Notes under the pieces: generated by a model
Told to the model about the DNA's origin: nothing
Seen by the model: only the letters and a program-made list of their open reading frames with translations
Databases searched by the model: none
Source of the DNA: Bifidobacterium animalis subsp. animalis ATCC 25527
GTDB lineage: Bacteria > Actinomycetota > Actinomycetes > Actinomycetales > Bifidobacteriaceae
Direction: 5' to 3'
Length of the DNA stretch: 64,000 bases
Assembly: GCF_000260715.1 (NCBI RefSeq)
Contig: NC_017834.1
Span: 1,674,001-1,738,000 of the forward strand
Part shown: positions 9,809 through 47,663 of the stretch, piece after piece
Numbering within the stretch: the first letter of the stretch is position 1
How the letters are laid out: every line of letters starts with the position of its first letter
Made by a program: the position numbers and the translations under genes

Positions 9809-10513
9809 CTAGAACAGGCGCAGTGCGCCATCATCGGTGCCCTTCATGTCGTCGTAATCGAGCAGCAGGCAGTCGAAACCGCGGTCCTTGGCAAGCACCT
9901 GCGCCTGCGGGGTGATCGTCTGTGCGGCGAAGATGCCGCGAACAGGGGCGAGCAGGGGGTCGCGGTTGAGCAATTCGCAATAGCGTGTGAGCTGTTCCAC
10001 GCCGTCGATGCCGCCGTGCCGTTTGATCTCGATGGCCACATGCGTGCCGTCGGCGTCGATGGCCATGATGTCCACCGGGCCGATTGCGGTCGGGTATTCA
10101 CGGCGCACGAGCTTGGCGCCCTCCCCTATGCGCTCGATCTGTTCGGCGAGATACCGCTGCAAGTGGTCTTCCACGCCATCTTTGCGCAGTCCCGGATCGG
10201 TTCCCAAATCGTGCGTCTCGTCGCTGTAGATGTGCTGCAGCGTCACTTCGAGCACATCGTTCGTTTTCGTGGACTGCACGCGAATGATCTTCTCCGGCGT
10301 GGGTGTTGCCGGGTCATCGTCGGCGTCCTGTGGGGTGATGTCTTTGATCGTGCACGGGGACAGCATCCAGTTGAGCGGCTTGTACGAGCCGATCTCCGAG
10401 AAGATGAGCAAGCTGTTGTCTGCCTTGATGAGCAGGACTCGTTTGGCGAGCGGAAGGGAGGCCGAAAGGCGTCCAGTGTATTCGGCGCAGCAGTCTGCAA
10501 CAATGATTCGCAT
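9809..10513 (-). CDS. nucS: Mismatch-specific endonuclease NucS/EndoMS
   Basis: A 234-residue nuclease that makes double-strand cuts at mismatches and replaces MutS/MutL in actinobacteria and some archaea, acting with the beta clamp. The N-terminal half is the beta-sandwich binding domain (RIIVADCCAEYTGRLSA, LLIFSEIGSYKPLNWM). The C-terminal half is the restriction-endonuclease-like domain with GPVDIMAIDADG and AIEIKRHGGIDGVEQL, giving the catalytic D-ExK residues. The start at 10513 (MRIIVADC) is preferred to 10558 because family members begin MR[IL]VIA and a TAGCCT hexamer lies seven bases upstream. Downstream is a strong hairpin; upstream lie the twin hairpins. Confidence 0.95.
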   Translation of the reverse strand: MRIIVADCCAEYTGRLSASLPLAKRVLLIKADNSLLIFSEIGSYKPLNWMLSPCTIKDITPQDADDDPATPTPEKIIRVQSTKTNDVLEVTLQHIYSDETHDLGTDPGLRKDGVEDHLQRYLAEQIERIGEGAKLVRREYPTAIGPVDIMAIDADGTHVAIEIKRHGGIDGVEQLTRYCELLNRDPLLAPVRGIFAAQTITPQAQVLAKDRGFDCLLLDYDDMKGTDDGALRLF

Positions 10514-10520
10514 GCGCTCA

Positions 10521-10526
10521 AGGCTA
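10521..10526 (-). promoter_or_regulatory. Possible -10 element of nucS (leaderless type)
   Basis: TAGCCT on the minus strand, seven bases from the ATG at 10513; no ribosome-binding site is present in the spacer. Confidence 0.4.
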
Positions 10527-10566
10527 GCGACCCCTCTCCCCCAACCCTGCTCGCCCATGCCTCTAA

Positions 10567-10681
10567 CCGGTGATTGGTGTCGGATGCGGGGCCGCCCGGG
10601 AAGGCTTCGTCACTGGATCGCAAGCGCCCTTTACGTTCCTCAACCTTTCCGGGCGGCCCCGCATCCGACACCAATCACCGG
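10567..10681. repeat. Long hairpin 1 of a twin pair (38-bp stem, 39-nt loop)
   Basis: The left arm 10567-10604 and right arm 10644-10681 are complementary over 38 bp with one mismatch. The 39-nt loop is 10605-10643. The loop is almost the exact reverse complement (38 of 39) of the loop of hairpin 2, while the stems are unrelated in sequence. It lies in the gene-free interval between atpC and nucS and encodes no recognisable protein. Confidence 0.9.
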
Positions 10682-10723
10682 CAGCAACGCCTCAAGACTT
10701 CCGCCAATTCCATACGTTGACGT

Positions 10724-10834
10724 GTGGTTGCCGTGGGACGGATTGGGCGGGCGGCAGGGTTGAGGAACGTAAAGGGCGCTTGCGATCCAGTGACGAGGCC
10801 CTGCCGCCCGCCCAATCCGGCCCACGGCAACCAC
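10724..10834. repeat. Long hairpin 2 of a twin pair (36-bp stem, same 39-nt loop inverted)
   Basis: The left arm 10724-10759 and right arm 10799-10834 pair over 36 bp with one mismatch; the loop is 10760-10798. A 42-bp non-repeated spacer (10682-10723) separates it from hairpin 1. Arms and loop are very G+C-rich compared with the flanking A/T-richer sequence at 10840-10880. Confidence 0.9.
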
Positions 10835-10885
10835 CAAGGTCTGGGAATCGTTATCTGAACGGCATATTCTGTCACCCAATATGCG

Positions 10886-10918
10886 AGTGGGCCACCCGGA
10901 AAGCCCGAGTGGCCCACT
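10886..10918 (-). terminator. Terminator of the ATP synthase operon
   Basis: AGTGGGCCAC...GTGGCCCACT with extended G/C pairing around a short A-rich loop, 18 bp beyond the atpC stop; one bulge in the stem. Confidence 0.75.
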
Positions 10919-10936: not shown

Positions 10937-11244
10937 TCAGCCCACGATGCCGCTCTGGTCAGCGCCCTCCGCCTGGAACGCGATGGAACGCGCGTTTTCA
11001 ACAACCACGGTGAGTTTGTTGGAGTCGAAGGAGATGAAGCCACCCGTCACTTCGAACGAGAACTTCTTGCCGTTCGGATCGGTGATGTCCAAACGACCTT
11101 CCTCGATCACCGAAAGCACTGGCTCATGGCCGGGCAGAATGCCCATGCCACCCGCGTAGGCGGGAACCACCACCTGCTTCGCCTCACCGCTCCAGACCGG
11201 GCGCTCCGACGAAACGATGTTCACTGCAATTGCTGCGCCTGTCA

Positions 11245-11245
<1 letters not shown>
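10937..11245 (-). CDS. atpC: ATP synthase F1 epsilon subunit
   Basis: A 102-residue subunit of the rotor stalk that couples gamma to the c-ring and regulates ATP hydrolysis. The typical motifs VNIVSSERPVWSGEAKQVVVPAYAGGMGILPGHEPV and GFISFDSNKLTVVVENA are present. It is short: the C-terminal helical hairpin of the longer E. coli form (about 138 residues) is mostly missing, as in other actinobacteria. Its ATG overlaps the atpD stop by one base (TGATG), indicating coupled translation. Last gene of the operon. Confidence 0.95.
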
Positions 11246-21388: not shown

Positions 21389-22775
21389 TTAGGATAGTCC
21401 TTTCGCTTGGACCGTGAGGAACATGTCCCGGTATTCCGCCGGGGTGTGTCCGCCGAGTCGTTCCTGGCGTCGTTGGGTGTTCCAGTGCACGATGTAGGCG
21501 TTGAGCTCGGCTTCGAACTGTTCGTACGAATCGAAGCTGTGCCCGCGGTAGAACTCGTCCTTGAGATGGCCGAACACCTGCTCGGTGGCGGCGTTGTCCA
21601 GGCAGTTGCCCTTGCGGCTCATGGACCGGCGTATGCCGAGCCGTTCGAGTTCCCCGCGCCACCAGCGGTGCTGGTACTGCCATCCCATGTCGGAGTGCAG
21701 GACGGGCCGGGCGTCCCGGGGCAGGCGGTCGGCGAGCCGGGCGAGCAGCCGCCTCTGCTGGCCCAGGTCCGGTCCTGCGGACGTGTCCCAGGCGACGATT
21801 TCCTTGCTGGCCATGTCGTAGACGGGGGCCAGGTACGCCTTGGAGCTGGCGACCTTGAACTCGGTCACGTCGGTGCCCAGTTTCATGAACGGGGCCACAG
21901 CGGCGAAGTCGCGCCGCTACAACTCGTACCGGGGCGCCGCTCTCGCCCCGGTACGAGTTGTAGCGGCTCCATGAGTTGGGACGGCGTATGACGCATCGAA
22001 GGCCCATGCGGCGCATGACCCTGAGCACGCTCTTGGCCGACACCCTCTGGCCGAACTCATGCACCAGGCACATGCGCACCTTCCGGTGCCCGCACCCGTT
22101 GGGAGTGCGCTCCCACACCCTCCTGACCAACGGCTCGAGGTCGGGCCGGGTCACGTGCGCCGGACGCGAGAGCAGCCGGTAGTACGTCGACCGGGCAAGC
22201 CCCGACACGGCCAGCAGATGCGCCAGCCGGTGCCCTTGCCCTGCAAGCCGTTTCACGAGCGCGGCCTTGTCGCGCCTCGTGACCTCGACACCTGCAGGGC
22301 ATGCAATTTTTCCAGGTAGGCGACCTTCGCCTCCAGGAACGCGAGCTGCTCGGCCAGCTCCTGCTCGCGCGTGGCAGCCGGCGCCGGCCCGTTGGATGAA
22401 CCCCGGGGCCGGCCCTTGGCCCGGGGCCGCAGCGCCTCGGCGCCCCCCCCCCGCACGGTACTCGCGGCACCAGCGCTCCAACGGCGCGATGCTGGCTATA
22501 TGGTGCCTGGCCATGGCCTCCGCCTTGCCCACACCCCGGTCCACCACATCACGCACCGCCGCGACCTTGGTCTGCCAATCGTAGCTGCGTCTGCCCCCGG
22601 CTCCCATCACGGCACTCCTTCCACCGGACCGATACAACACGATCCATTTTCCCGCAGTGCCCCGCGGAACCGCAAGCCGACGGGCCAGCTGCCTGACCGA
22701 CACCCCCGCCCCGATCAGCGCCACGGCCCGGCGACGCACGTCATCGCCATGCCGCCTCCTTCGATCCACTCCCAT
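21389..22775 (-). pseudogene. IS3-family transposase (OrfA + OrfB), broken
   Basis: The helix-turn-helix of OrfA (VALIGAGVSVRQLARRLAV) is followed by a second helical segment. The frame then changes at a run of ten C (22443-22452), after which the OrfA leucine zipper continues (TREQELAEQLAFLEAKVAYL). OrfB starts in another frame (RRDKAALVKRLAGQGHRLAH; NGCGHRKVRMCLVHEFGQRV), as normal for programmed frameshifting in this family. It is broken again at 21914-21966, where a perfect 22-bp hairpin replaces expected codons. The rest of the DDE core (LGTDVTEFKVASSKAYLAPV, HSDMGWQYQ, NCLDNAATEQVFGHLKDE) lies in a third frame. The transposase is therefore inactive. Confidence 0.85.
21914..21966. repeat. 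Perfect 22-bp hairpin inside the transposase gene
   Basis: Arms 21914-21935 and 21945-21966 are exact reverse complements with a 9-nt spacer. The arm nearer OrfB's N-terminus encodes conserved residues (RYNSYRG); the other arm is its mirror copy and disrupts the frame, as expected from a template-switch error. Confidence 0.85.
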
Positions 22776-39374: not shown

Positions 39375-39442
39375 CCGCATATGCACACGAGGGCCGTTCC
39401 CGCATTCAACTCGCGACGAACGGCCCTCGTGTGCATATGCGG
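39375..39442 (+). terminator. Terminator of glgE, perfect 24-bp stem
   Basis: Arms 39375-39398 and 39419-39442 are exact reverse complements with a 20-nt loop, starting seven bases after the stop codon. Confidence 0.8.
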
Positions 39443-47605: not shown

Positions 47606-47663
47606 CCGGAACATGAAATGCGGGAAGGCATGAGCATATGCCTTCCCGCATTTCATGTTCCGG
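47606..47663 (+). terminator. Terminator of valS, perfect 26-bp stem
   Basis: Arms 47606-47631 and 47638-47663 are exact reverse complements with a 6-nt loop; longest terminator-like stem in the window apart from the twin hairpins. Confidence 0.8.

Follow-up and report, generated by a model that had tools for sequence, protein, structure and literature searches.

Two hairpins between nucS and an ATP synthase gene

The window, by which we mean the whole stretch of 64,000 nucleotides of the Bifidobacterium animalis subsp. animalis ATCC 25527 genome that was analysed, carries two long hairpins between nucS (9809-10558, minus strand; PF01939 and PF21003) and a gene for the ATP synthase delta/epsilon chain (10937-11245, minus strand; PF02823); the Pfam domains agree with the location given in the preliminary description of this DNA. 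The start of nucS is 8 nt away from hairpin 1, and 102 nt separate the end of the ATP synthase gene from hairpin 2. An ordinary terminator-like hairpin with a 14-bp stem and a 5-nt loop (10886-10918, minus strand) lies just 3' of the ATP synthase epsilon gene and is outside the family described below.

Hairpin 1, on the plus strand, consists of a 5' arm (10567-10604), a 39-nt loop that we call the tip (10605-10643), and a 3' arm (10644-10681) that pairs with the 5' arm in a stem of 38 bp. The tip is of subtype A, and its conserved core (10607-10641) reads TCGTCACTGGATCGCAAGCGCCCTTTACGTTCCTC. A spacer (10682-10723), inside which a repeat search found nothing, separates it from hairpin 2, in which a first arm (10724-10759, minus strand) and a second arm (10799-10834, minus strand) form a stem of 36 bp, unrelated to the arms of hairpin 1, around another 39-nt tip of subtype A on the minus strand (10760-10798, core 10762-10796). 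Together they form a facing pair, with the CGTC ends of the tips outside.

The stem coordinates and lengths first reported are exact to the base, with arms of 38 nt and 36 nt that are each 97% complementary and one mismatch per stem. The reported identity of the inverted loops is likewise borne out: a query made of the loop and two flanking bases on each side (43 nt) matches hairpin 1 perfectly and, on the opposite strand, hairpin 2 with one mismatch, at 0 matches expected from 100 shuffles. RNA folding of 10540-10860 gives z = -11.8, and none of 100 shuffles was equally stable.

A family of tips across the genome

The twin hairpins are members of a dispersed repeat family. The 35-nt loop core occurs 12 times in the genome at up to three mismatches (reversed control: 0), and a second tip subtype occurs seven times. 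A covariance model built from 17 hairpins found 23 copies in the genome; it missed a second tip family, which surfaced in a generic hairpin scan, and a broader model, R2, found 31 copies at E <= 4e-5. The two models combined give 33 copies, that is, the 31 of R2 and two matched by the first model alone, the hairpins used in model building matching their own model by construction. Two further R2 matches, with E-values of 0.37 and 0.73, were left out of the 33. The expectation that the loop would be found elsewhere between self-complementary flanks of differing sequence agrees with what was seen: the loop recurs, most flanks are self-complementary, and the flanks differ between matches.

Tips are 32-62 nt long, and nearly all have the borders TCRTCR...YTCCTC. 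By inspection, the left border contains CGTC in 28 of this genome's 33 copies and in all 11 copies of G017, whose version of one conserved protein is 96% identical, which makes it the nearest relative by this measure (the next reaches 90%). The other left borders here read CGCC (175440) or CATC (1850989, 1925539 and 1925694), or belong to a cut tip (1769960). The interior of the tip is variable between copies, and the second family has a variable inner stem. Such differences between families mean that the interior is under no tight constraint; its identity among subtype-A tips therefore points to recent copying, in which the arms were not copied along.

Searches in wider collections returned little. 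An exact 25-mer of the tip has no match in 84,980 species genomes, a collection that may omit records near this genome, and a gapped tip pattern has 3 matches in species genomes and 13 in viral contigs, none of them with paired flanks. The tip was not found in a phage collection and gave one 24-nt chance match in plasmids, where records near the source may be absent. In Rfam, the window has only two tRNAs above the gathering score; the 14 family loci searched have 43 matches up to E 1, mostly to microRNA hairpins, with all listed scores below the gathering score. Among the article titles listed, in a literature mostly limited to openly available papers, none describes the tip-hairpin family. 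A different, REPIN-like family, in which TTACGGGCTAGGATTTTCTGTTACGGGCTA-like units form inverted pairs and roughly 80-130 nt separate the two units, was seen in several copies (952-1093 of the window, and L088, L089 and L208).

Arms unique to each site

The long arms, unique to each site, are the new feature with respect to known REP repeats. Arm length is usually 24-43 bp, and 25 of the 33 copies are at least 90% complementary over 30 ungapped nt; the copies at 1265.9k and 1928.7k are badly decayed, and the stems of those at 81.8k and 428.5k contain indels. In an alignment of 17 copies (A1, comprising 17 of 19 pattern matches, with two weak-armed copies omitted), each of the 24 stem pairs varies at both of its positions and 92.5% of 402 cells are paired, a level reached by none of 500 shuffles, slid controls giving 40-50%.

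The stems had been called unrelated. This is true of the outer 15 nt of the arms, which show no similarity across copies beyond composition (p 0.20), but not of the innermost 8 nt, which adjoin the loop and in which a loose common motif gives 4.14 identities versus 2.98 in shuffles (0 of 500 as high). Mean arm similarity between copies is slightly higher than in shuffled arms (6.29 versus 5.68), and the best arm match between copies (12) is not raised relative to the mean shuffled maximum (11.1).

Mismatched stem cells in the alignment comprise 12 G-T and 30 others out of the 402, so that G-T is not preferred, as expected if a once perfect copy decays. Given this lack of wobble tolerance, the earlier suggestion of an RNA constrained only to pair is not favoured. 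A G-rich 5' arm, present in 18 of 19 cases, was considered as evidence of orientation and dropped because in a palindrome it is true of both strands. At 1492.1k of the genome (L104:12056-12209) there are three related arm copies and one tip, the third copy being tipless, possibly a trace of repeated local copying.

Facing pairs

The strongest evidence for separate histories of tip and arms is that facing pairs share their tips and not their arms. There are seven facing pairs here and three in G017, with members in opposite orientation and CGTC ends outside; the tags lie outside in all opposite-strand neighbours within 300 bp (7/7 and 3/3, respectively). Same-strand neighbours are also present (1928.5/1928.7k here, 41714/41888 in G017). 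The tip scores of the seven pairs are 0.94, 0.94, 0.88, 1.0, 1.0, 0.83 and 0.38, where all combinations average 0.43 (P 0.0002); the exception (0.38) is the pair at 1925.5k, whose tips are no closer than those of random copies. The G017 pairs score 0.95, 1.0 and 0.63 against a mean of 0.53 (P 0.04). The arms in facing pairs are no closer than those of random copies, either here (P 0.39) or in G017 (P 0.75). This comparison supports the view that tip and arms have had separate histories. Between the members of the pair at 175k lies a third hairpin, which has a shortened tip, TCGTGACTCGATCCGTTCCTC (L002:1580-1650).

How the hairpins may be made

The reading to which we tentatively lean is that the hairpins are copies of a dispersed, REP-like repeat in which the tip would be the unit of inheritance, the tip being copied and the arms being made by snap-back template switching, a process that, in the accessible text of PMC8794818, creates and maintains perfect hairpins. 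The tip would be copied into a new site or taken over from an adjacent copy. The strand that had just copied it would fold back onto the G-rich sequence of its origin, with the inner GG...CC pairs as the foothold, copy some 25-40 nt and then return to its template, the replication machinery doing the work. Through each such copying event the DNA at the site would become a perfect palindrome that bears a tip of the family, and later template switching or plain mutation would repair or erode the arms. Hairpins may be tolerated just 3' of genes, where most copies lie, and putatively also end transcription there. Snap-back copying of this kind would explain why the arms are unique, why their pairing was once perfect and has decayed with no preference for G-T, why there is an inner GG/CC foothold, and why a dedicated enzyme is absent.

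As for that absence, the Y1 or RAYT transposase (PF01797; control positive in 5 of 14) was not found in any of 10 genomes, namely this one and nine relatives, and neither was a reverse transcriptase (PF00078; control positive in 3 of 14), on which retro-insertion by a group II intron, retron or DGR would depend, in any of 10. The preliminary description had proposed that the arms are made anew by snap-back copying or single-strand transposition; the separate behaviour of tips and arms in facing pairs favours the general idea and snap-back copying is compatible with it, but the Y1 transposase that stands behind the other route was not found. Against the snap-back reading are the observations that arms can be inherited, as in a G017 duplication described below, that the tips of the 1925.5k pair are unlike, and that arms are on average slightly more similar between copies than after shuffling; neither a donor nor a copying intermediate was seen.

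With slightly more reserve, we consider that the bare 32-62 nt tip may itself spread and that the host may copy the target back on itself, which would make it a self-spreading template-switch element with neither a transposase nor a reverse transcriptase of its own. Repeats are usually recognised by the parts that are copied together; here the unpaired tip appears to be copied, and the arms that make the structure appear to be new at each site. If the arms are made at insertion, short repeats could spread by the replication machinery alone, and the hairpin family would offer a natural assay for snap-back template switching, in a food-grade species of which many strains have been sequenced.

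Relatives and equivalent sites

Among 112 genomes of the genus, R2 at E <= 0.02 and with strict filters detects the family in just two, this one and G017, which has 11 copies with tip variants of its own and arms of 18-32 bp. A weak match in G038 (E 0.017, stem of 14 with 2 mismatches) was left uncounted. The first covariance model, which misses the second tip family, found nothing in the 111 other genus genomes under strict filters. G017 also has a further dispersed repeat in inverted pairs, TTTGCTGGTGGGGATATAAAAC, whose spacers measure about 56-84 nt (L210-L226). The argument that ordinary duplication would copy the stems as well is confirmed by two G017 copies 2.2 kb apart (C12:51898 and 54139), which are duplicated including arms and flanks and differ by one compensated arm change.

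Eight equivalent slots were compared between the two genomes. Four have hairpins only here: the ATP synthase-nucS slot, with a gap of 375 bp versus 134 bp in G017; the slot at 1758.5k, where G017 instead carries a terminator with an A/T tract and an unrelated sequence; and those at 1928.5/1928.7k and 1929.8k. Two have hairpins only in G017, at C12 18.3/18.6k, which corresponds to a 64-nt gap here, and at C12 62.5k. Family hairpins with unrelated arms are present in both genomes at 1925.5-1925.8k, and at C12 41.7-42.1k G017 has three copies and this genome a variant hairpin. No alignable empty site was found, the intergenic DNA of the two genomes being too diverged for letter-by-letter alignment.

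These comparisons bear on an alternative that we regard as possible but doubtful, namely that the hairpins are ancient and their tips exchangeable, with arms that diverged to saturation as template switching kept them perfectly paired, and tips that were homogenised inside each genome by short-tract conversion or selection. The shared border motif and private tip variants of G017 are what concerted evolution predicts, and the unrelated arms at 1925.5-1925.8k, the copy-to-copy variation of the inner stem in the second family and the compensated change between the duplicated G017 copies also fit. However, six of the eight slots are filled in one genome only and a seventh holds a variant hairpin here, so that many copies are not ancient unless losses are frequent, and a 35-nt conversion tract between hairpins with unrelated arms would itself be unusual.

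Genomic setting and tip-free palindromes

At 14 of 18 family locations, a gene 3' end is no more than 60 nt away. These 18 locations, which leave out seven found later, fall into 8 convergent, 10 tandem and 0 divergent gene gaps (the location at 1218k may be convergent), and the background of gaps of at least 60 nt comprises 142 tandem, 51 convergent and 37 divergent ones. A replication polarity was also considered and rejected: the first 12 of 12 single copies lay along the fork, and with later copies the count became 15 of 19, those at 1185.9k, 1186.8k, 1195.1k and 1806.7k lying against it, which is no stronger a bias than that of genes, 270 of 369 of which are on the leading strand.

There are also long tip-free palindromes, each with a tiny loop and a stem of its own, 25 of them in 870 kb of stretches partly selected for containing family copies, and others in relatives. 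In the window, three perfect palindromes, long, short-looped and each with a unique stem, lie at 21913-21967, 39375-39442 and 47606-47663, two of the three following a gene end. In G026, palindrome stems reach 90 bp, for example upstream of nucS (L028:1310-1496), and both arms contain a repeated unit, AGAAATTGTTCATTTTTTGAACAAAATCTAGG, beside inner or outer portions that are unique, which looks as though the arms had been copied onto each other. Tip-free palindromes per Mb (score >=22, loop <=18) number 22 here, 10 in G006, 58 in G026, 10 in G017 and 33 in G021. Loss of SbcCD was rejected as the cause of stable palindromes for want of a clean link; of six genomes, G006 has SbcD (TIGR00619) and the other five, this one among them, lack it, yet G017, without SbcD, is as palindrome-poor as G006.

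It is unlikely, in our view, that a small REP-like unit was inserted at the centre of pre-existing palindromes, such as long terminators. The tip-free palindromes here and in relatives would provide targets, and REPs within palindromes are described for a few families in the accessible text of PMC3733652. But G+C is 0.75 in tip-bearing arms versus 0.61 in tip-free palindromes (p 1.3e-6), and a run of four A/T occurs in 1 of 22 of the former versus 12 of 25 of the latter (p 0.001), so that, judged by composition, tip-bearing hairpins are different from ordinary terminators. Moreover, the stem is wholly absent at two G017 slots, and the A/T-tracted terminator at another is unrelated.

It is improbable that the hairpins are structured RNAs at mRNA 3' ends (terminators, stabilisers or protein-binding hairpins), selected for pairing and tip and not mobile: the preference for gene 3' ends and the lack of divergent gaps would suit such a role, and on the minus strand the border motif can zip as tandem G-A pairs, with changes that keep wobble 8 versus 1 on the other strand, but this count could come from strand-biased mutation, selection for RNA pairing needs no mismatch-free 25-40 bp and G-T is not favoured, the opposite orientation within facing pairs leaves one member antisense in tandem contexts, and Rfam has no match above threshold.

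Comparison with known systems

The earlier statement that no described family matches was too strong. CGTC-tagged REPs, as presented in the accessible text of PMC3733652, are the closest known kind: the tag, the orientation of the dimers and the location at gene 3' ends are common to both. In both, CGTC stands at one end of the unit, and pairs have their tags outside, HH dimers being said to predominate among the REPs. Both are often found just 3' of genes and between convergent genes, and both comprise species-specific families without a dedicated transposase. The snap-back reading, if correct, would have consequences for an unsolved problem, namely how CGTC-type REPs move without a transposase. 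In contrast, the REP format given there, an 8-9 bp stem starting with A/T pairs, a 4-5 nt loop and a CCA tail, is absent here; judged by eye, the tips here have a YTCCTC end and inner stems that are weaker or longer, and variable. Each unit here also tops a long palindrome with arms unique to its site. Because the format of stem, loop and tail differs, the tip family is not filed as a member of the CGTC REPs; the words Bifidobacterium and Actinobacteria are absent from the main text of PMC3733652.

REPINs and GTAG REPs with RAYT, as far as the accessible text of PMC3116915 describes them, are likewise short palindromic dispersed units that form inverted pairs and a population within one genome, whereas here there is no Y1 transposase and no GTAG tag, and the arms are long and unique to each site. 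Template-switch hairpins and quasipalindrome correction, in the accessible portions of PMC8794818 and PMC8604942, similarly yield perfect arms from one replication event, with no need for RNA selection; those events use local sequence only, and these portions describe no imported family tip. Finally, the mitochondrial hairpin elements RHE and DHE of sponges are also small, spreading, intergenic hairpins, but in the accessible text of PMC2800124 their stems are conserved and their loops variable, the reverse of what is seen here.
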